From NCBI GenBank assembly GCA_016212665.1, contig JACREZ010000022.1, positions 1 to 40,704 of the forward strand: a DNA stretch of 40,704 nucleotides, given 5' to 3'. Of the stretch, positions 2,628 to 34,690 are shown piece by piece. Numbering within the stretch: the stretch's first letter is position 1; each line of letters begins with the position of its first letter. The DNA is from Ignavibacteriota bacterium. GTDB taxonomy: Bacteria > Bacteroidota > Ignavibacteria > UBA10030 > SZUA-254. The translations under genes were made by a program, and so were the position numbers. The notes beneath the pieces are model-generated. The model searched no databases. It saw nothing but the letters and a program-made list of their open reading frames with translations, and was not told where the DNA came from.

Positions 2628-2948
2628 ATGAAAATCATATCAAAAGAATTGCTTGAAGAAATCACTCGGAGACTTGTTGAGGAATTTCAGCCGCATAAGA
2701 TTATCCTGTTTGGCTCGCATGCATGGGGAACGCCGAATGATGATAGCGATGTGGATATCTGTGTCATTGTAGAACAAAGCACTGAAGCGCCTGCACGTCG
2801 TGCCTCACGTGCGTATCGTTGTTTGCGAGGAGTACGGGTTTCAAAAGATATTCTCGTAAAAACACGTTCAGAGTTTGACCGGTATTTCTCGGTCCCCGCT
2901 TCTTTAGAGCGCGCTGTTGCCGAAAAAGGAAAGCTGTTGTATGGTTGA
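2628..2948 (+). CDS. MNT-type nucleotidyltransferase (antitoxin of HEPN/MNT module)
   Basis: Minimal nucleotidyltransferase of 106 residues. The DNA polymerase-beta-like signature is visible as ILFGSHAWGTPNDDSDVDICVI (G-S, then the metal-binding D-x-D), followed by a third acidic position around the SKDILV strand. In HEPN/MNT toxin-antitoxin pairs the MNT enzyme neutralises its HEPN partner, in studied cases by AMPylating it. The stop codon overlaps the start of the downstream HEPN gene by eight bases, which indicates translational coupling. This is the first gene of a cassette lying between two copies of the macro-gene 3' end. Confidence 0.85.
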   Translation: MKIISKELLEEITRRLVEEFQPHKIILFGSHAWGTPNDDSDVDICVIVEQSTEAPARRASRAYRCLRGVRVSKDILVKTRSEFDRYFSVPASLERAVAEKGKLLYG

Positions 2949-3360
2949 CGCAAAACAGGAACTTGTTCGAAACTGGTTGACGAAAGCTTCTCACGATCTT
3001 GAAGCCGCACGCACACTTGCTTTATCGGAACACCCGCTCCTCGATGTAGCAATTTATCATTGCCAACAAGCTGCAGAAAAAGCCGTTAAAGGATTTCTCG
3101 TTTTTCACGACCAACCTTTCGAAAAAACTCATGACATCGAAGAATTACTTTCTGTTGCAGGAGAAGTTGATCAACGTATTTTACAGTGGAACGAAGCGGG
3201 AGAGTATCTCACTCCGTATGTCTCATTGTTCCGTTACCCGGGCACTACATTAGAGCCAACTCAGAGAGAATTTGAACTTGCTCTGACAATGGCTGACGAT
3301 CTTTTTCGAGTGATATGTTCGTTTCTGCCTGAAAACGTACACCCACCGGAAAGAGAGTAA
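2941..3360 (+). CDS. HEPN domain protein (putative toxin of HEPN/MNT module)
   Basis: Helical HEPN-family protein of about 139 residues, started at ATG 2941 inside the end of the MNT gene. The conserved core is NWLTKASHDLEAAR...AIYHCQQAAEKAVKGFL followed by a KTHDIEELL helix, which places it in the PF05168-like HEPN group. HEPN partners of MNT proteins are commonly RNases or regulatory substrates of the transferase; a canonical R-x4-6-H catalytic motif is not obvious here, so nuclease activity is uncertain. The orphaned macro-gene end begins about 75 bases after the stop codon. Confidence 0.83.
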   Translation: MVDAKQELVRNWLTKASHDLEAARTLALSEHPLLDVAIYHCQQAAEKAVKGFLVFHDQPFEKTHDIEELLSVAGEVDQRILQWNEAGEYLTPYVSLFRYPGTTLEPTQREFELALTMADDLFRVICSFLPENVHPPERE

Positions 3361-3434
3361 TCGAATCAGTCATAGTGTTTCAAACCTCCAATCCTGTAAA
3401 CCTCAAGACCACATGTTTGTTAAAGCGATACAGT

Positions 3435-3485
3435 GCTTTTGATAAGGAACTGCATTTGCAGTTTTCGACGAAACGGCATAGTTGA
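3435..3485 (+). pseudogene. Orphaned 3' end of a macro-domain gene
   Basis: Read in frame to the stop at 3483-3485 this segment gives AFDKELHLQFSTKRHS, matching AFNEELHLQFSTKRR, the C-terminus of the macro-domain protein at 2533-2580. Across 14 codons 33 of 42 bases are identical, and five of the seven differing codons are synonymous. No start codon or preceding homologous sequence is attached. The rest of 3361-3604 shows no gene. It is best read as the displaced end of the macro gene left behind when the MNT/HEPN cassette was inserted. Confidence 0.75.
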
Positions 3486-24325: not shown

Positions 24326-24355
24326 AAAATGCAAAATAGTTGTGTGAAATTCAAA
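24326..24355. repeat. Left direct repeat flanking the DUF433/DUF5615 module
   Basis: A 30-base sequence (core GCAAAATAGTTGTGTGAAAT) identical, base for base, to 25038-25067. The two copies bracket the second DUF5615/DUF433 pair at a spacing of 712 bases. The similarity weakens immediately outside, apart from a short upstream TGATG. Confidence 0.85.
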
Positions 24356-24366
24356 CACAAAACTTG

Positions 24367-24765
24367 TCAGAGTGTGAGGTTTTCCCACGTGAAATGCTTT
24401 TCGTTTTCTGATTTTACCTCCCAAACACTTCCGCCCGTATGAGAGACACGGATAACTTTCCCCATCCGTTTTGCATTGGTGTTGAACACATCAAGCCGAA
24501 GCAATCGTTGCGCAAACAACGCCGCCTCAGACTGCTCCACCTCAAGAAACACGAGGCAGTACCGGGAATGACAGAGGATTCGTTTGTAAAAATGTCTGTC
24601 AGAAGAGAAGAATGTTGGTTGACGAAGTCGCATCAGAAAGTCCACAATTTCATTATCCTTCATTCCCTTCCTCCCAACCTCATAACCTATTTGACGAAAA
24701 CGTATTCTTCGTTGTTTGAGAAAGAGTCGTTGGCTCTCAAGAATATTTTCGTCAAGGAGAATCAC
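24367..24765 (-). CDS. DUF5615 PIN-like toxin (second module)
   Basis: A 132-residue PIN-like protein with acidic positions in MILLDENILESQRLFLKQ and FFSSDRHFYKR, and a central EVGRKGMKDNEIVDFLMR that is typical of DUF5615. The start overlaps the upstream DUF433 stop by four bases. It is only moderately similar to the first DUF5615 (17096-17449), so the two modules did not arise by a recent duplication within this window. It ends 12 bases from the left direct repeat. Confidence 0.82.
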   Translation of the reverse strand: MILLDENILESQRLFLKQRRIRFRQIGYEVGRKGMKDNEIVDFLMRLRQPTFFSSDRHFYKRILCHSRYCLVFLEVEQSEAALFAQRLLRLDVFNTNAKRMGKVIRVSHTGGSVWEVKSENEKHFTWENLTL

Positions 24766-25028
24766 GCCGCTGTTTGCTTTATGATAAACTCATCAGAGTG
24801 TTTCATAAAAGCTTCGCCGGAAAGTTTGATTGCTTCTGCAATGGCTTCGTTTGTAATGCTGTGGTGACATTCCTCAACTATCGTTTCCCATGCTTTCCCT
24901 TTTGAAAGCATATCGAGAACCTGCCAAACCATGATGCGGGTTCCGCGGAATGTCGGTTGACCATCGCATATACCGGGATCGGTTACAATGTAACGACCTA
25001 AAAGATTTGCTGTATGACTTCGTTTCAT
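24762..25028 (-). CDS. DUF433 antitoxin (second module)
   Basis: An 88-residue DUF433 protein with RYIVTDPGICDGQPTFRGTRI and MVWQVLDMLSKGKAWETIVEE, followed by the helix ITNEAIAEAIKLSGEAF. ATG 25028 is preferred to the in-frame ATG at 25046, because the latter would lie inside the direct repeat. It is divergently arranged with the phosphatase gene, and the 30-bp repeat overlaps its probable promoter region. Confidence 0.85.
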   Translation of the reverse strand: MKRSHTANLLGRYIVTDPGICDGQPTFRGTRIMVWQVLDMLSKGKAWETIVEECHHSITNEAIAEAIKLSGEAFMKHSDEFIIKQTAA

Positions 25029-25037
25029 GTTGATGTA

Positions 25038-25067
25038 AAAATGCAAAATAGTTGTGTGAAATTCAAA
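25038..25067. repeat. Right direct repeat flanking the DUF433/DUF5615 module
   Basis: Exact 30-base copy of 24326-24355. It lies immediately upstream of the DUF433 gene and 82 bases upstream of the phosphatase start. Recombination between the copies would remove the whole module and leave one copy in the hisA-like/phosphatase intergenic region. Confidence 0.85.
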
Positions 25068-25148
25068 AAAATAAATTCCATGAATTCAATTTTCATTCAC
25101 CGGAAATTTCTCTATCTTTGTCCACTCATTTTCAATACTCAATCTCTC

Positions 25149-26819
25149 ATGAAACGCATCTACCTTCTCCTAACTCTCTGCTCTCTGCTCTTCGCTCAGA
25201 GCTCACATCTCCAATCTCAAATCGCAAAACCCGAAACACAAAACACAAACCCAAAACTGTTTGTTCTCATCGTCGTTGACCAACTCCCCTACGAACATCT
25301 CGAACGATTCTCCCCCTACTTCTCCGATAAAGGATTTAACTATTTGATGAAGAACGGAGCGAACTTCATCAACACGAATTACAAGTACGCATACACGAAA
25401 ACAGCGTGCGGTCATGCGGCAATTGCAACCGGAACGAATCCTGACCTAAACGGCATCGTCGGGAACGCGTGGTACGACAGAACAAAAAAGAAAACTGTGA
25501 ACTGTGTCGGTGATGAGAATGAAAAACTTGTAGGAAAAGAAGGCGCCGGAAAATCGCCGCGTACATTGACAACGTACACGCTCGGCGACATGCTGAAACT
25601 CTCTACCAACTTCCGCTCGAAAGTGATTGGCGTTTCCAACAAAGACCGCGCGGCAATTCTGACAGCCGGAAAATTCGGAACTGCGTATTGGAGCGATGGG
25701 TCGGGTTTTGTGAGTTCAACCTATTACACCAAGGAATTACCTTCGTGGGTAACGAAGTTTAACGCGTCGGGATTCATGCAGAAATTTTTCGGAAAGAAGT
25801 GGGAGTTGCTAAAACCGGAACTCGCACAAGCGCTTTGTGATGAAGACTCGAACAAATACGAATCAAGTTATGCGGGAATGGGAACAACGTTTCCACACAT
25901 CGTGAGCGGAGAGGACAGAACAAAACTCACCGACTCGTATTACACCGCGCTCGAAACGTCTCCGTTTCTTACCGAAGCGCTGTTTGAGTTTGCGCGTACG
26001 ACTGTTCTTGCAGAATCGCTCGGCACACGCTGCGTCACCGACATGCTGAGCGTGGGCATTTCGGGAACGGATATTATCGGACATAACTACGGACCGCACA
26101 GCCCGGAAGTGTTTGATAATCTTCTCCGCACCGATGCGTATCTTGCAGAGTTTCTTTCGTTTCTGGATACGCAGTTCGGCTTGTACAATTGTCTGATTGC
26201 ACTTTCTGCCGACCATGGCATCGCCCCGATTCCCGAATATATATTGAAGAAAGATTCCCGCGCCGATGCCGGAAGAATCGGCACCGACAGCGTGAAGAAA
26301 GCGTGTATGAATATTCTCAACAACAAATTCAATGCGGCAGAATCGCTGTGGATTGAAAAAGTGGTGGAGAATAATATTTACATCAACAAGGAATTCATTA
26401 GTAAATACCGTCACACTGACGAAAACTCCATCCTGCAAATATTGAAAGATTCACTGCCGGGAAGATTGCCGGTGTTCGCCTCCTACACGCTCGATGATTT
26501 GGAGAAGAATTCTCTGCCCAACAAACTTCGCGAGCAGGTTCAACTTTCTTGTTATCCTCCCCGATGCGGCGACTTGATGTTTGTCTTCAAACCATATTGG
26601 ATTCTCGACGGCGCGAAAGACGGAACGAACCACGGAATGCCGTGGGAATACGACACGCACGTTCCGCTCATCTTCTTTGGAAATAACATCACTCCCGGTA
26701 CGTTTGCCGACGATGCCTCTCCGATAGATTTAGCGCCGACCGTTGCCGCGTTGTTGGGGATTGAGTTTCCGGCATCGAGCGCGGGAAAAGTTCGCTCAGA
26801 AATAGTTATACAAAAATGA
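25149..26819 (+). CDS. PafA-like alkaline phosphatase / phosphodiesterase-superfamily enzyme
   Basis: A 556-residue exported enzyme of the alkaline phosphatase superfamily. ATG 25149 gives a signal peptide (MKRIYLLLTLCSLLFAQSS). The nucleophile region YTKTACGHAAIATGTNPDLN, preceded by FVLIVVDQLPYEHLERF (metal-binding Asp), resembles PafA, which uses Thr. The zinc ligands follow in GTDIIGHNYGPHS, LSADHGIAPIPEY and NHGMPWEYDTHVPLIFFG. PafA enzymes liberate phosphate from many monoesters in the periplasm. The C-terminal 22 codons (DLAPTVAALLGIEFP...GKV) recur in an orphaned fragment after the downstream MazF module. Confidence 0.9.
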   Translation: MKRIYLLLTLCSLLFAQSSHLQSQIAKPETQNTNPKLFVLIVVDQLPYEHLERFSPYFSDKGFNYLMKNGANFINTNYKYAYTKTACGHAAIATGTNPDLNGIVGNAWYDRTKKKTVNCVGDENEKLVGKEGAGKSPRTLTTYTLGDMLKLSTNFRSKVIGVSNKDRAAILTAGKFGTAYWSDGSGFVSSTYYTKELPSWVTKFNASGFMQKFFGKKWELLKPELAQALCDEDSNKYESSYAGMGTTFPHIVSGEDRTKLTDSYYTALETSPFLTEALFEFARTTVLAESLGTRCVTDMLSVGISGTDIIGHNYGPHSPEVFDNLLRTDAYLAEFLSFLDTQFGLYNCLIALSADHGIAPIPEYILKKDSRADAGRIGTDSVKKACMNILNNKFNAAESLWIEKVVENNIYINKEFISKYRHTDENSILQILKDSLPGRLPVFASYTLDDLEKNSLPNKLREQVQLSCYPPRCGDLMFVFKPYWILDGAKDGTNHGMPWEYDTHVPLIFFGNNITPGTFADDASPIDLAPTVAALLGIEFPASSAGKVRSEIVIQK

Positions 26820-26872: not shown

Positions 26873-27067
26873 ATGACTGTTTATGAATCAACAATTTCGA
26901 ACATCCAACGTTTGCCTGAACCGATGATTCAGGAAGTCAATGACTTTGTTGAATTTTTGATTTCAAAGAGAATGCCGGTTGAAAATATCGAGTCGGATTT
27001 TCCTGACTATCTTCGGAATCTCGAAGAATACGAAAACATCTTAGCCCGCGGGGAAGTTGCGTGGTAG
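26873..27067 (+). CDS. DUF2281-like antitoxin of a MazF module
   Basis: A 64-residue protein starting at ATG 26873, preceded by TAGGAG. The motif ISNIQRLPEPMIQEVNDFVEFLISKR resembles DUF2281/'AbrB-less' antitoxins ('IxxLPxxxxxEVxDFVEFL'). An acidic C-terminus (DFPDYLRNLEEYENILARGEVAW) probably wraps the toxin. The stop codon overlaps the GTG start of the MazF gene by seven bases, as in coupled antitoxin-toxin operons. It lies 53 bases after the phosphatase stop, in the same orientation. Confidence 0.78.
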   Translation: MTVYESTISNIQRLPEPMIQEVNDFVEFLISKRMPVENIESDFPDYLRNLEEYENILARGEVAW

Positions 27068-27405
27068 CCATTCATCGCGGAGATGTTGTGTTATGCGACC
27101 TCAACCCAGTGGTTGGAACCGAGCAGTCTGGCATTCGCCCTGTTATTGTTTTGCAAATTGATAAAGCAAATCTCATCAGCCCTCACACTATCATTGTCCC
27201 GTTGACAACAAAGATTCGAAAAGCACTATTACCATCTCATGTTGTTTTGAATGCGGGCACCGGTGGCATTGCAGAAAACTCCGTCGTATTGTGTGAACAA
27301 ATACGAGTCATTGATAAACGAAGAATTATCAAGACAGTTGGACAACTTGATAGAATTTCCATGCAAGCCATTGCTCATGCGGTGAATATTATTCTTGGGC
27401 TTTGA
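27061..27405 (+). CDS. MazF/PemK-family endoribonuclease toxin
   Basis: A 114-residue MazF-like toxin starting at GTG 27061. The family pattern is plain: IHRGDVVLCDLNPVVGTEQSGIRPVIVLQ, HTIIVPLTTKIRK, VVLCEQIRVIDKRRI and TVGQLDRISM. MazF enzymes cut single-stranded RNA at short motifs and stop growth when free of antitoxin. The conserved Arg of GIRPVIVLQ and the Thr of PLTTK are intact, so it should be functional. Its stop lies nine bases before the orphaned phosphatase 3' end. Confidence 0.9.
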   Translation: MVAIHRGDVVLCDLNPVVGTEQSGIRPVIVLQIDKANLISPHTIIVPLTTKIRKALLPSHVVLNAGTGGIAENSVVLCEQIRVIDKRRIIKTVGQLDRISMQAIAHAVNIILGL

Positions 27406-27413
27406 AAGTAAGG

Positions 27414-27509
27414 GTTGTTGACCTTGCAACAACAGTTGTTTCATTGTTGGGGATTGAGTTTCCGACTTCAAGGGGTGGGAAGGTGTTGAAGAATATCTTT
27501 CTTAAATAA
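27414..27509 (+). pseudogene. Orphaned 3' end of a PafA-like phosphatase gene
   Basis: In frame it reads VVDLATTVVSLLGIEFPTSR then GGKVLKNIFLK and a TAA stop at 27507-27509. The intact phosphatase ends PIDLAPTVAALLGIEFPASS then AGKVRSEIVIQK. Over 22 codons 16 residues match, including a 21-base identical run (26751-26771 and 27444-27464). There is no start and nothing phosphatase-like upstream, because the MazF gene abuts it. It is the second-copy remnant expected after a cassette enters the 3' end of the phosphatase gene. Confidence 0.8.
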
Positions 27510-27602: not shown

Positions 27603-27723
27603 TTACCAAGTCTCAAGCCCCTTCCTCCGATTCCGAATATAATCCACAAAAATAAACTCACCGAAGTTCTGGAGTGTGGAGTAATACGCACGTCCATGAT
27701 TTGCTTTGGTAAGTTCTCTCACT
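27603..27723 (-). pseudogene. Orphaned 3' end of the VWA-domain gene
   Basis: Read on the minus strand it gives [20 protein letters not shown] followed by [17 protein letters not shown] and a TAA stop at 27603-27605. The intact VWA gene (28441-29541) has the same sequence with one change (F to L) and a different last four residues. Over 32 codons 88 of 96 bases match, and seven of the eight differences are synonymous. It lacks any start and lies directly behind the PIN/small-protein cassette, so it is the displaced end of the VWA gene. Confidence 0.87.
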
Positions 27724-27743: not shown

Positions 27744-27956
27744 TCAACCAGGTTTTTTCTTCTGTTTCTTTGCTCGTTTGAAAATCTCTTCTATTGTTTG
27801 ACCATCATAGAGTCGTTTAGAAATTTCAACATAGTCCGTTGGCTCCCGGTGTAGCAGAACGAGAAACCGTAAAGCCGCGGATGGCCCGAGATTTTTATTC
27901 AGTATTTCAATACCCTTAAATTTTATTTCTGTGTCGTTCATTGTTTTGGTTGTCAT
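27744..27956 (-). CDS. Small protein, partner of PIN toxin (putative antitoxin)
   Basis: A 70-residue protein, rich in Lys at the C-terminus (FKRAKKQKKKPG). The segment LGPSAALRFLVLLHREPTDYVEISKRLYD followed by GQTIEEIF resembles a family of short proteins seen beside PIN-domain genes. Here it is second in the operon, its start overlapping the PIN stop by four bases. Antitoxin function is inferred from position. A second possible start is five codons downstream. Confidence 0.72.
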   Translation of the reverse strand: MTTKTMNDTEIKFKGIEILNKNLGPSAALRFLVLLHREPTDYVEISKRLYDGQTIEEIFKRAKKQKKKPG

Positions 27957-28399
27957 AAGGTTGTTCCTTTGCTAACATAATCTAACGGATTCAAAACCGG
28001 AAAATCAAGTTGTAATCTTATTGAGCGAGTAATCAATTCGATGTCGCACGTAAGAAAAACTTTACACTTTGCATATTCCGCACATGCGACATGGATTGCA
28101 TCTTTTGATGATAGATTTCCTTTTTGCTGATAACTCTTTGCTACAAGAAAAATCGTTTCGTTCAAAACGACATTAATATTACAAAGAGATGACAACTGTT
28201 CAACCAGAAGTTTTCTTTCAGGAAACGGACAAAGACTATTCTCGTCTTCATGCATAAATGACCAAATTAATTTTACCTGTTTTTTCTCTGCCCTTCTAAA
28301 GATTTCTTCACAGGCTAACGACTCAAGTTGAATCTTGATTTGTCTCTGGTCATCAAACATCCGTTGAAAGCAATTGTAATCAAGGTAAAGTACGTTCAT
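27953..28399 (-). CDS. PIN-domain ribonuclease (putative toxin)
   Basis: A 148-residue PIN-fold protein. Acidic active-site candidates are Asp7 in VLYLDYNCFQRMF, Glu/Asp in MHEDENS, and Asp in SSKDAIHVACAEYAKCKVFLTCD, which is the strongest family signature. PIN toxins are Mg-dependent RNases that often cut tRNA or rRNA. It begins 42 bases after the VWA stop in the same orientation, and is followed by its small partner and then the orphaned VWA end. Confidence 0.83.
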   Translation of the reverse strand: MNVLYLDYNCFQRMFDDQRQIKIQLESLACEEIFRRAEKKQVKLIWSFMHEDENSLCPFPERKLLVEQLSSLCNINVVLNETIFLVAKSYQQKGNLSSKDAIHVACAEYAKCKVFLTCDIELITRSIRLQLDFPVLNPLDYVSKGTTL

Positions 28400-28440: not shown

Positions 28441-29541
28441 CTATGAAATCCCAAACCTCTTCCTCCGGTTCCGTATATAATCCACAAATATAAACTCACC
28501 GAGATTTTGGAGTGTGGAGTAATACGCACGTCCATGATTTGCTTTCGTGAGTTCTTCCACGAAATCAATCAGGTACGGATCGCGGGCGACCATGAATGTG
28601 CTGATGGTGATTTTTTCGCGGCGGCATGTTACCGCTTCATCAAGTGTTTTGTTCACGATGCGCGGGTCAAGTCCGATGGAGTTTTTGAAGAGACGACCGT
28701 TCTCATCGAGGATGGCTGAGGGTTTTCCGTCTGTTATCATGAAGATTTGTTTGTTGGCTTTGCCGCATCGTCTCAGCAACTGCCGCGCAAGTTGCAAGCC
28801 GGCACGCGTGTTTGTGTGGTACGGTCCGACATTGAGAAACGGCAACTCGGCAATGCTCATCAACTTTGCATCATCACCAAACACAACAAGCGCGAGATAA
28901 TCTTTCGGATATTTCTGCATGATGAGTTCGGTCAGCGCCATCGCCACCTGCTTTGCCGGCGTGATGCGGTCTTCACCGTAGAGAATCATTGAGTGGGAAA
29001 TATCGAGCATCAGCACGGTTGCGCACGTGGTTGTGTTTTCGGTTTCATAGACTTCCAAATCTTCCTCTTTCATTTGAAAGTTATCAATTCCATCCCGTTT
29101 AAACATGTTTGTCAGCGTTGAGGTGAGGTCTATGTTCGTGGGTTGGTCGCCGAACGACCATTTTTTTGTCTCGCTCAGGCGGTTCACTCCGTCGCCCGTT
29201 TGCGGCGATTCATGACTTCCGCTCATCCCTTTCTTCAGCGAACTGAAGATTTCATCGAGGGCATCTTTGCGCAGGCGTTGGATGCCGCGCGTGGTGAGTT
29301 GAAGCGAGCCGTCAATCTCTTCGATGAGTCCAAGTTCTTTCAACTTCTCAATCAAATCTTCGAGCGACATGTTCTCATCGAAGATGCCATACTCACGCGC
29401 AATCTGCCGGAGCCAATCAAGCGCTTCTTCGACATCGCCGCTGGTTTTCGTGACCATGTAACTGAAAAGCGAGAGCAGGTTTTGGAGACGTTGCTCGTCG
29501 GTCATTGAGTCGGGTGTCCATTGACTGTATAAGAACTTCAT
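28441..29541 (-). CDS. VWA (CoxE-like/MIDAS) domain protein
   Basis: A 366-residue protein with an N-terminal helical region (about 1-130) and a von Willebrand factor A domain (about 170-345). The MIDAS metal site is [12 protein letters not shown] with the later MITDGKPS. Proteins of this type usually pair with an AAA+ MoxR-like ATPase, which is not present in this window, so they may act with a distant partner. Its 3' end is duplicated at 27603-27723 beyond the PIN module. A GTG/TTG alternative start was not needed: ATG 29541 gives [13 protein letters not shown]. Confidence 0.85.
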
Positions 29542-32398: not shown

Positions 32399-32953
32399 CT
32401 ACAATTTAATATCCTCTTGAGCAATTCTCACCAACTCATTCACAGTTTTCCAGTTTCGTGTCGTCGCAGTGAGCTTTAATTTGTTTTCAAAGAAGTTATT
32501 GTTCGTTTTGGCGTTCCCGAAACCGTTGGGACAGTGCAGGTAAACTTCTTTTCCATTGATGATATATCGCTCCGGTGGAAATTGGTATGCTTGAATTTTC
32601 TGTAATGAATCTTTAGCGGGTGTCTCTGCGAGGAAGGTAACGTACATTCGTTCCGTATCAATGTTCTTTTCTTTCAGGAACGGATTATTCTTGATTACTG
32701 ACTGCATTTCTTTCAGCGTCCTAATGATGACAGGAACTTCAAAACCAAAGTGTTTGAAAATCTTCTCTTCAATTTTTTTCGAGAGGATGTTCGAGTCAGA
32801 ACCATCGCTTGAAAACACAACATTCCCGCTCTGAATATATGTCGTAACGTTTTTGAACTTCAACTCTTCGTAAAGTGCTTTCAGTTCGTTCATCGGAACT
32901 TTCTTTTGTCCGCCGACATTTATTCCGCGAAGCATTGAAATAATCACCATCAT
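32399..32953 (-). CDS. DUF1697 protein
   Basis: A 184-residue DUF1697 protein, recognised by MVIISMLRGINVGGQKKVPMNELKALYEELKFKNVTTYIQSGNVVF-type beginning (here shortened; key words are LRGINVGG, KVPM and TYIQSGNVVF) and the closing TTRNWKTVNELVRIA. The family has a two-domain alpha/beta fold without an established biochemical role. Normal length (about 175-185). It is transcribed toward priA and starts 94 bases from the orphaned DUF454 end, and so was probably the natural neighbour of DUF454 before the Fic cassette came in. Confidence 0.86.
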   Translation of the reverse strand: MMVIISMLRGINVGGQKKVPMNELKALYEELKFKNVTTYIQSGNVVFSSDGSDSNILSKKIEEKIFKHFGFEVPVIIRTLKEMQSVIKNNPFLKEKNIDTERMYVTFLAETPAKDSLQKIQAYQFPPERYIINGKEVYLHCPNGFGNAKTNNNFFENKLKLTATTRNWKTVNELVRIAQEDIKL

Positions 32954-33047: not shown

Positions 33048-33128
33048 TTACTCTTTCGATTTCATCAACATCAGCCGAAGCGTAATCCCTACTGCAACGA
33101 CAAGCATAATAATTTTTGCCGTGGTATC
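33048..33128 (-). pseudogene. Orphaned 3' end of a DUF454 gene
   Basis: Read on the minus strand the fragment gives AKIIMLVVAVGITLRLMLMK then SKE and a TAA stop (33048-33050), the same 23 residues as the end of the intact DUF454 gene at 34328-34399. Over 72 bases 67 match, and all five differences are synonymous. Similarity stops a few codons further upstream, where the Fic gene's downstream sequence begins. This is the clearest of the four orphaned gene ends. Confidence 0.9.
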
Positions 33129-33153
33129 TTGAGGTAAAGATTCCATAATCATA

Positions 33154-33750
33154 TCACCCTCTTGCAAACTGTATAAGCAATCTATAATCATTGTCATCTG
33201 CTTCTTTCAATGCCTGTAAATATTTCTTTCGTGCTTCGCCTTGTTTGTCAAGACTCCTGCTGCCCCATGAAAAATGCTGTTGACCAAGTCCATGGCTCAC
33301 TAAAATGTCCGCTATCAAACGTGAGTGTCTGCCGTTGCCGTTTGCAAATGGATGAATTCTCACTATCCGGTGACTAAAGCGTACCGCTATCTCGTCCCCG
33401 TGAAACACTGTGTTGGTAATCCAGAACCGACAATCTTCAAGCAATTTTTTTAGTTCTACTCCAATGAGAAACTTATCTACACCGATATTTTTATTTGACG
33501 TTCTGAATTGACCCGCCCACATCCAAACATCGTCAAACATTCTTCGATGTAATTCTTTCACAAACTCCTCGGTTAAAATTTTTTTAACAGAGAATTTTTT
33601 CCTCAAAGACCACTCTATTGCTTTCTCTACATTGAGCTGTTCGAATTCATCAAGTTCGGCGCGTGTTGAAATAGTTTTGATGAGCAATTCTTCTTTCTCA
33701 TCTTCATCTATTGGCGTTTGACCTTCAATGTCAAAAAGATCTAATCCCAT
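33154..33750 (-). CDS. Fic-domain protein, 'mobile mystery protein B' type
   Basis: A 198-residue Fic-fold enzyme. The catalytic motif HPFANGNGRHSR (HPFx(D/E/A)GNGR) is complete apart from an Asn before the second Gly, the usual arrangement in this group; the preceding QLNVEKAIEWSLRKKF and VWMWAGQFRTSNKNIG are typical of the TIGR02613 'mobile mystery protein B' family. Fic proteins transfer AMP or other nucleotide groups to target proteins. The start overlaps the upstream XRE gene by ten bases. The family was named because it is found in mobile contexts. Confidence 0.88.
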   Translation of the reverse strand: MGLDLFDIEGQTPIDEDEKEELLIKTISTRAELDEFEQLNVEKAIEWSLRKKFSVKKILTEEFVKELHRRMFDDVWMWAGQFRTSNKNIGVDKFLIGVELKKLLEDCRFWITNTVFHGDEIAVRFSHRIVRIHPFANGNGRHSRLIADILVSHGLGQQHFSWGSRSLDKQGEARKKYLQALKEADDNDYRLLIQFARG

Positions 33751-34205
33751 AAATACTTAGGCATTTCCTCCTTAATTTCTTCCGCTCGTTGTTGAATGGC
33801 TTTCTCAAGCCGTTCTTTCCTGTTTTCCTGCGCTTCAAGACTCATGGACTGAGATGTTCTTAAAACAATCTCGCGTGCAATTTGATACGCTCGTTTTTCT
33901 ATGATTACTTCGATTGATTTTTCCCGGGGAATAAAACCATAGACAAATTGAAGATTCAGCGCTTCAGCAACTTCCATAAGTTTCTTTATAGTAATGTTTT
34001 TGTTCGCTTCCCGCTCTTCAATCTCTTTTACGCTTTGTGTTGTCTTCCTAAGTTTTTTCGCGAGCTGCGTGAGCGACATATTCAAAGCGGTTCGTATTGA
34101 ATAAATCCAGCCCTTTGTTGGAATCTCAAATTCGCTTAACGCCGTGATTTTTTCAAACTTTCTGTCAAGTTGTCCAATAAGTATTTTTCTGTTTTGATTT
34201 TTCAT
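33741..34205 (-). CDS. XRE-family regulator, 'mobile mystery protein A' type
   Basis: A 154-residue helix-turn-helix protein from ATG 34205 (MKNQNRKILIGQLDRKFEKI); the HTH is at SLTQLAKKLRKTTQSVKEIEEREANKNITIKKLMEVAEALN (about 45-85, quoted here in parts: SLTQLAKKLRKTTQSV and ITIKKLMEVAEAL). It continues with a C-terminal helical region that probably contacts the Fic partner. It matches TIGR02612 in position and layout. Palindromic candidate operators lie immediately upstream (34238-34286), suggesting autorepression of the pair. Confidence 0.87.
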   Translation of the reverse strand: MKNQNRKILIGQLDRKFEKITALSEFEIPTKGWIYSIRTALNMSLTQLAKKLRKTTQSVKEIEEREANKNITIKKLMEVAEALNLQFVYGFIPREKSIEVIIEKRAYQIAREIVLRTSQSMSLEAQENRKERLEKAIQQRAEEIKEEMPKYLWD

Positions 34206-34237
34206 AAGGATAAATCCATAATCTTGCAGACACAAAA

Positions 34238-34286
34238 TAAGGATATAGCCTTAAAAACACAAGTAGTAATTAAGGATATATCCTTA
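34238..34286. promoter_or_regulatory. Tandem palindromic operators of the XRE/Fic pair
   Basis: TAAGGATATAGCCTTA (34238-34253) and the perfect 16-bp palindrome TAAGGATATATCCTTA (34271-34286) are 33 bases apart, centre to centre. A third, degenerate copy, TAAGGATAAATCCATA, begins at 34205 and overlaps the XRE start codon. A repressor dimer binding at spaced palindromes, three helical turns apart, is the expected arrangement for an XRE antitoxin. Confidence 0.7.
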
Positions 34287-34327
34287 GAACCGTTGGTGTA
34301 GAAAATCCTTGCTGATAGTAAGCGTGG

Positions 34328-34690
34328 TTATTCCTTCGATTTCATCAACATCAACCGAAGCGTAATCCCTACCGCAACGACAAGCATAATGATTTTTGCA
34401 GTGATGTCTTCTATAAGAAAAACGACGGACGCACCGATTGTGAGCCAAAGAAACAAAACAGAATACATCCTTATTTTGAAAGGGATCCCTTTTCCTTCCC
34501 GATAATTGGTAAGAATTGTTCCGAGCCATTTGTGATGAATTAACCACAAATAAAATCGTTCCGAACCTTTTGCGTACAGGTACGCGGCGAGCAACAAAAA
34601 CGGAACAGTCGGAAGCAAGGGCACGACTATACCAATCACTCCAAAAAGAACCGAGAGCGAACCCGCTGTAAGGAAAAAAATTTTCTTCAC
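34328..34690 (-). CDS. DUF454 (YbaN-like) inner-membrane protein
   Basis: A 120-residue protein with about four hydrophobic helices: FFLTAGSLSVLFGVIGIVVPLLPTVPFLLLAAY in the N-terminal half (shown by the motif GIVVPLLPTVPFLLLAA), then RMYSVLFLWLTIGASVVFLI and IIMLVVAVGITLRLML. The RFYLWLIHHKWLGTIL region is typical of DUF454. Function of the family is unknown. It lies 11 bases downstream of DUF2461, and its last 23 codons recur as an orphan at 33048. Confidence 0.88.
   Translation of the reverse strand: MKKIFFLTAGSLSVLFGVIGIVVPLLPTVPFLLLAAYLYAKGSERFYLWLIHHKWLGTILTNYREGKGIPFKIRMYSVLFLWLTIGASVVFLIEDITAKIIMLVVAVGITLRLMLMKSKE

Follow-up and report, generated by a model that had tools for sequence, protein, structure and literature searches.

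In this study, we examined a pair of genes encoding an XRE-type regulator and a Fic-domain protein in a 40,704-nucleotide stretch of DNA from an Ignavibacteriota bacterium (assembly GCA_016212665.1, contig JACREZ010000022.1, positions 1-40,704 of the forward strand), the whole of which is referred to here as the window. We show that the pair stands between two copies of the 3' end of a DUF454 gene, one of them an orphan, and that brackets of this kind also enclose other XRE/Fic pairs and unrelated modules of toxin-antitoxin type. Our tentative reading, to which we give a little less than an even chance, is that such a module enters by recombination anchored in the gene end that accompanies it and displaces the resident end, and that addiction then keeps the cargo in place. 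How toxin-antitoxin modules without an integrase move and persist in chromosomes is, to our knowledge, unclear, and a search of the open-licence literature found no report of gene-end brackets for toxin-antitoxin modules or for the mobile mystery proteins, to which the two window proteins belong.

On the minus strand the genes follow each other in the order DUF454, XRE, Fic, orphan DUF454 end, DUF1697 and priA-like. Repeat search and alignment gave a single 83-nt direct-repeat pair with 90% identity, one copy being the last 83 bp (34328-34410) of the intact DUF454 gene (34328-34690; 120 amino acids; PF04304, E 4e-33) and the other the orphan (33048-33130), an open frame with its stop codon that starts 23 bp past the Fic stop; the DUF1697 gene (32399-32953; PF08002) lies on the far side of the orphan. 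This confirms the bracket of two DUF454 gene ends that an earlier note on this DNA had described. The DUF454 protein matched the whole genome at these two places only, and no second DUF454 end was found at 18 related loci of the order (about 1.5 kb searched on each side, more in four of them); the repeat therefore stands above chance. The idea that the orphan is a small working gene was rejected, an in-frame ATG being all that spoke for it.

Within the genus, the locus was compared in two other genomes, the sister species G002 and G001. G002 is colinear with the window (83%) as far as the DUF454 stop codon and then different, with a lexA-like gene; its DUF1697-priA segment lies on a separate contig beside polB/imuA-like genes (names read from translations), and in G001 the arrangement is different again. 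Both have one DUF454 end, followed by sequence unlike that of the window, and neither offers a clean empty site. None of the 18 related DUF454 loci adjoins an XRE/Fic pair, and in G003, G017 and G044 a Fic relative lies on a contig other than that of DUF454. Neither of the outcomes that the earlier note had named as speaking against it was seen: the orphan did not occur in relatives lacking the pair (18 DUF454 loci), and it did not appear as a recent local duplicate in all relatives (two other genomes of the genus). In G002, lexA-, imuA- and polB-like genes flank the DUF454-DUF1697 slot on both contig sides (L022, 7727-8365; L052, 4384-8257). They are perhaps one SOS mutagenesis cassette; neither G000 nor G001 has a match to the lexA-like protein.

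The two copies of the repeat look like alleles. They share the same stop codon, and the five differences in their last 72 bases are all synonymous, as the earlier note had said of these 72 bases; over the full 83 bp the statement does not hold, since the additional 11 bases contain three further differences of which one is non-synonymous (codon 96, Ile/Thr), giving a silent to changing ratio of 7:1 for eight differences. At the eight differing codons, the orphan keeps the state of G002 at four, the intact gene at two and neither at two, and as the orphan shares this state at more codons it is not the faster-evolving copy. When a constrained gene and a neutral orphan were simulated, at most one amino-acid change among eight differences had a P of 0.0035. 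The clearest case is a Flavobacterium locus (L097), where 15 of 18 differences are silent and three changing. Compared with this gene end in G731, G757 and G738, the L097 orphan has identities of 88, 85 and 84% and the intact copy 86, 77 and 79%, with 87% between the two copies themselves; in a tree of 144 bp the orphan grouped with genes of other species, with the intact end outside (local support 0.887). Silent to changing ratios at L111 (6:2), L108 (an mnmE-like end, 8:4) and L103 (9:7) lean the same way. When eight of the 13 coding repeats were combined, the model of a constrained copy mixed with a neutral one, with a mixture fraction of 0.37 estimated by us, had a P of 4e-5. These comparisons argue firmly at L097, and with moderate strength at the window, that both ends probably evolved separately as working genes, which the earlier note had proposed for the window.

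XRE/Fic pairs were collected from the same order by a Fic protein search (16 of 98 genomes), from the phylum with TIGR02613 (395 genomes; 34 matches over the cut-off, 30 of which became loci) and from GTDB contigs (the best 80 of 545 relatives). Among the resulting 126 loci with a Fic match, 125 had XRE, and 110 of 114 unique pairs had at least 200 bp on both sides. A pair was called bracketed if the 500 bp before XRE and the 500 bp behind Fic shared a direct repeat with a score of at least 50. This applied to 24 of the 110 pairs, compared with 0/2185 mismatched loci, 0/110 inverted and 31/1633 shifted windows. Seventeen of the 24 passed a multi-copy filter (no more than three copies within the locus and no copy at any other locus), that is 17/110 pairs against 17/1609 shifted windows. 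Other genes of at least 150 amino acids in the same loci were bracketed less often (17/259; P 5e-5), and many of those 17 brackets are dispersed repeats or tandem paralogues. The 24 repeats span 35-241 bp, and in 11 of the 17 filtered cases the downstream copy begins 0-32 bp past the Fic stop. The targets are 3' ends of mnmE-like, phytanoyl-CoA-dioxygenase-like, DUF454 and other genes (several names read from translations), as well as tRNA-Gln, terminator-like sequences and two gene starts. At L307 a tRNA-Met stands on one side of the pair and a copy of the tRNA-Met 3' part on the other. Neighbouring genes rarely recur between loci (12 small clusters), so many of the insertions look independent. 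A protein-level search for ends of flanking genes across the element gave 9/174, all at known loci (control 0/522), and in the class of the genome of L137, which is labelled Methylophilaceae, 3 of 21 pairs including that of L137 itself were bracketed (mismatched control 0/420). L307 is one of these three.

Some candidate brackets in this survey proved to be of another kind. The repeats at L098, L142, L160, L120 and L141 were rejected as dispersed or array repeats because of their many copies or their recurrence in other loci. Multi-copy repeats of about 120-150 bp occur at L098, L142, L160, L140 and L120, around XRE/Fic and other genes, and by eye some have imperfect inverted ends resembling integron attC sites or miniature inverted-repeat transposable elements. 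In two genera (L053 in G014, L056 in G003) one and the same flippase-like gene has its 3' end turned towards an XRE/Fic pair; G003 has there a truncated XRE and two flippase-end orphans, and G014 a methyltransferase-like gene and another open reading frame (ORF).

The pair in the window is an ordinary member of its families. The XRE-type helix-turn-helix protein (33741-34205, minus strand; mobile mystery protein A; PF01381) reaches 131.4 bits with TIGR02612, for which the NCBIfam cut-off is 122.6, and the Fic-domain protein (33154-33750, minus strand; mobile mystery protein B; PF02661) reaches 241 bits with TIGR02613, for which it is 124.4; the genes are adjacent and overlap, with XRE first. 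Upstream of XRE are two operator-like palindromes, AGGnTATwnCCT, at -79 (34273-34284) and, at a spacing of 33 bp, at -46 (34240-34251), followed by a degenerate third site at about -13 (34207-34218) whose position was derived from relatives; all three are read on the minus strand, and the palindromes were found by repeat search and in the pairs of relatives, at least one site being present in 33 of 110 pairs compared with 2 of 3342 control windows. With its regularly spaced palindromes and the XRE-Fic overlap, the pair looks like an autoregulated toxin-antitoxin operon, and judging from gene order, family and operator-like sites XRE would be the antitoxin, binding the upstream palindromes, and Fic the toxin. 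The Fic motif H-P/C-F-x-N-G-N-G-R has an invariant Asn in all 13 aligned members (the window protein and 12 relatives). Fic enzymes usually carry Asp or Glu at that position, and the Asn may alter the chemistry. Relatives of the Fic protein were also seen in five contigs classed as viral (L328-L332), with the L331 copy near portal-like genes (read from translations), and in 239 plasmid records, 151 of them from Agrobacterium or Rhizobium; among the 40 plasmid matches listed, a DUF3991 gene lies under the Fic match in many.

The window contains further brackets of the same design. Four of its nine direct-repeat families are long (40-115 nt), have their copies spaced 0.7-1.3 kb apart and each enclose a toxin-antitoxin-type module, and a fifth bracket was detected at the protein level. 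Besides XRE/Fic, four modules are thus bracketed, three between an intact 3' end and an orphan and one between 40-nt repeats; the five are those that were seen, the scan for toxin-antitoxin families having covered part of the window ORFs. The bracket found at the protein level lies on the plus strand, where a Macro-domain gene (2038-2580; PF01661) is followed by a module (2628-3360) of a nucleotidyltransferase (2628-2948; PF01909) and a HEPN protein (2917-3360; PF05168) and, directly behind HEPN, by an orphan 3' end of the Macro gene (3363-3476; tblastn, 42.5% over 40 amino acids, E 1.5e-6). Also on the plus strand, a phosphodiesterase gene (25014-26819, its start probably near 25140; PF01663) precedes a module (26873-27405) of a DUF2281 protein (26873-27067; PF10047) and a MazF/PemK toxin (27061-27405; PF02452), behind which repeat and protein searches placed an orphan end of the phosphodiesterase with an open frame and stop (27411-27509). 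On the minus strand, a gene with a vWA domain (28441-29541; PF13519) and its orphan 3' end (27608-27722; 115 bp, 88%; repeat search) enclose a module (27744-28399) of a PIN toxin (27953-28399; PF01850, E 1.8e-6) and a 70-amino-acid partner without a Pfam match (27744-27956). The 40-nt repeats, one upstream of a hisA-like gene (24326-24365) and one at 25038-25077 (90%), were found by repeat search around a minus-strand module (24367-25028) of a DUF433-type antitoxin (24762-25028; PF04255, E 7e-16) and a DUF5615-like toxin (24367-24765; PF18480, E 0.0027, below cut-off).

A scan for repeated gene 3' ends covered about 1.04 Mb of the genome in three sets. The first (377 kb, 326 ORFs) gave six non-paralogous orphans with cargo, and in every case the cargo is a module of toxin-antitoxin type; four of the six lie in the window, one on contig C25 (UPF0175 with DUF3368/PIN) and one on contig C23 (DUF433 with DUF5615). 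Among the same 326 ORFs the control scans gave one match for gene starts, which was the 40-nt repeat, and one for gene middles. In two further sets (350 kb, 237 ORFs; 316 kb, 209 ORFs) no additional coding 3'-end orphan with cargo turned up; what they did contain was a bracketed PIN gene on contig C3 and, on contig C16, a NYN gene within a gene-start bracket. The six exclude this NYN bracket, the C3 case (beside a doubtful ORF) and the 24326/25038 repeat of the window, the latter two not being coding gene ends. Matches flagged as paralogues were set aside by judgement, as were repeats at two places on C9 and at single places on C12 and C14 that had no clear cargo; a repeat on C25 (33771/38545) was rejected as a pair of similar permease genes. 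In the C16/G009 set, gene starts gave two matches, 3' ends one (gap 70 bp) and middles none that was unflagged. Among other Fic genes in the genomes surveyed for XRE/Fic, 5 of 40 were bracketed, at least one of them (L287) at a gene end. These five and the four other window modules rule out that the bracket is specific to XRE/Fic. The earlier note's suggestion of a route special to the TIGR02612/TIGR02613 pair is therefore not supported; most pairs of the survey are also unbracketed.

Occupied sites could be compared with uninterrupted ones in two genera. Of the 38 Aquirufa genomes compared, G488, G508 and G501 have an uninterrupted site. The XRE/Fic insertion is common to two others, and a third carries different cargo next to a related orphan; in 28 the match begins at the tRNA and extends rightwards only, and four have no match. 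In Algoriphagus, 1 of 72 genomes (G592) is uninterrupted, and others have a Fic remnant or a sulfatase-like or kinase-like gene beside orphans of the same gene end. With varied cargo at one Algoriphagus gene end and both empty and occupied sites, the slot is reused and its cargo turns over. A recombination breakpoint inside the Algoriphagus gene was sought, with no clear result.

According to the reading that we tentatively prefer, an addiction-type XRE/Fic module would arrive beside the DUF454 3' end of another lineage, and recombination anchored in DUF454 would replace the resident gene, or just its tail, by the incoming version and place the pair behind it. The far end would be joined inside the resident DUF454, the displaced tail of which would survive as the orphan. 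Since DUF454 would still have a complete tail, such an insertion should do little harm. The direct repeat should permit clean deletion of the cargo; addictive cargo would harm the cells that delete it, and with deletion punished in this way the brackets that persist in this genome would be those holding toxin-antitoxin-type modules. That incoming DNA recombined into the site, for example after transformation, we infer from the allele-like copies, and retention by addiction from the cargo bias and from the restriction-modification (R-M) precedent, for which passages in PMC1643837 and PMC3031569 describe repeat brackets and selection based on killing; the joining inside the resident gene is our proposal for the second junction.

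Several observations weigh against this interpretation. At the threshold used, 86 of the 110 XRE/Fic pairs are without a bracket, and the share of brackets among other Fic genes is not significantly lower (5/40 versus 24/110; P 0.25). Outside the window most toxin-antitoxin-type modules are unbracketed, with about three brackets for some 15-18 modules recognized by Pfam, an estimate from the top 25 of 70 families among 98 small ORFs that occur in pairs on C23, on C25 and at 20 contig starts. Algoriphagus brackets at one gene enclose a sulfatase-like or kinase-like gene. Contig C16 (316 kb) has no 3'-end orphan but two gene-start repeats, and a contig of a relative (G009 C1, 172 kb) has no orphan with cargo. 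Both junctions are tight to the module, unlike what random illegitimate joining predicts. Third-position divergence from G002 (with the mnmE row left out) made neither flank stand out as foreign. Just two to four changes fall on the orphan branch, so the window locus taken alone is suggestive and not decisive, and three Aquirufa species share one old insertion, which makes donor and local origin indistinguishable there. Finally, the silent bias is not general: among own-genome orphans the silent to changing ratios are 7:6 (vWA) and 4:5 (phosphodiesterase) and two orphans are frame-shifted, the remaining coding repeats show no silent lean, and the P for all 13 coding repeats, 0.0024, rises to 0.02 when the window is left out and to 0.13 when L097 is. 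As a rule, the claim that both ends had worked as genes in separate lineages is thus unproven.

One rival explanation is a strict form of insertion with long target duplication (ILTD), a process which Nobusato and colleagues are said to have described in 2000 for R-M genes. Here the resident target would have been duplicated and the orphan would decay, the silent bias in DUF454 being luck; we regard this as rather unlikely. The bracket structure matches that of R-M genes in Helicobacter pylori, as far as the relevant passages of PMC1643837 describe it. The single-copy uninterrupted sites in Aquirufa fit a duplicated segment of about 123-141 bp with a complete tRNA-Gln gene in it, there is no silent bias at the gene-start repeats L057 and L138 or at several own-genome orphans, and the overall bias hinges on L097. 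Against it speak the silent excess at the window and L097, the same lean at L108, L111 and L103, and the position of the two L097 copies in different parts of the tree of related genes.

Alternatively, cassettes lacking an integrase might be inserted at gene 3' ends and tRNAs by a site-specific recombinase provided in trans, with a carried replacement end displacing the native one. Phages that enter gene 3' ends carry a replacement gene end, icd being an example, and the targets here are often 3' ends, terminator-like sequences or tRNAs, as with the tRNA-Met 3'-part repeat around the pair at L307. The orphans of one Algoriphagus gene start within about 10 nt of each other despite their different cargo; however, two of them (G551 and G532 o1) share upstream sequence and probably reflect one event. 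Against it, no common end sequence was seen by eye, few neighbours recur and gene starts are targeted too; we consider this explanation unlikely. A further alternative is that the DUF454 end was simply duplicated in tandem on the spot and XRE/Fic captured independently afterwards, or that the assembly is in error; the DUF454 bracket is known from one assembled genome, for which no reads were available. This is very unlikely in our judgement, given that pairs stand recurrently between copies (24/110, and also 3/21 in the class of L137), that the 18 relatives have no orphan and that one occupied site is common to two Aquirufa species.

It is possible, though rather unlikely, that the preferred reading of entry by recombination extends further, such that many unrelated addiction modules travel with the 3' end of a host gene, repair the same gene in related species and leave a footprint. 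If so, the arrival of toxin-antitoxin modules would have left a general fossil record in the form of gene-end orphans. A readable footprint would make it possible to detect arrivals, date them and trace their donors by sequence alone; the model also predicts that addiction stabilizes repeat-flanked insertions.

Among known systems, the TIGR02612/TIGR02613 mobile mystery proteins A and B, probably Fic pairs of toxin-antitoxin type, include the window pair without any difference that we found, both proteins being over the cut-offs and in the usual overlapping order. Phages and islands that integrate at gene 3' ends and tRNAs, and tycheposons, also restore the gene end and leave a fragment on the far side, as in the tRNA case at L307. 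As far as the sources consulted describe them, the window element differs in having no internal integrase and no common site that we saw. Between the repeats, which hold XRE and Fic only, there is no recombinase gene, a negative confined to the element itself, as no integrase search of its neighbourhood, the other loci or the genome was made. The ends of the element are not linked by an inverted repeat of at least 16 nt as in transposons or insertion sequences, and by eye no end sequence is shared among 19 bracketed elements. For the displacement of type VI secretion system effectors, homology-facilitated illegitimate recombination has been proposed (PMC5361080), and the account there resembles ours in one homologous anchor, one illegitimate junction and the survival of older displaced sequence as orphans; it differs in that a new, non-homologous effector part is gained there, and a homologous gene end with unusually tight junctions here. 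The minimal mobile element, as outlined in PMC3082526, is similar in that differing cassettes without mobility genes appear to occupy the place between DUF454 and DUF1697, with XRE/Fic in G000 and lexA-like and polB-imuA-like genes in G002; the window differs from it in leaving a gene-end orphan, and the slot of G002 is split over two contigs. The closest parallel is ILTD in H. pylori, in which R-M genes lie between long direct repeats (PMC1643837; ILTD is mentioned in PMC3031569). As far as these passages go, in both cases genes of addiction type are enclosed by long direct repeats of an apparently single-copy target, in the window over 83 bp with 90% identity, and neither has a transposase or inverted end repeats, but here several toxin-antitoxin-type families are involved and the copies at the window and L097 look allele-like rather than freshly duplicated. 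Our findings would extend ILTD from R-M genes to modules of toxin-antitoxin type, with recombination in an accompanying gene end as the proposed molecular step.

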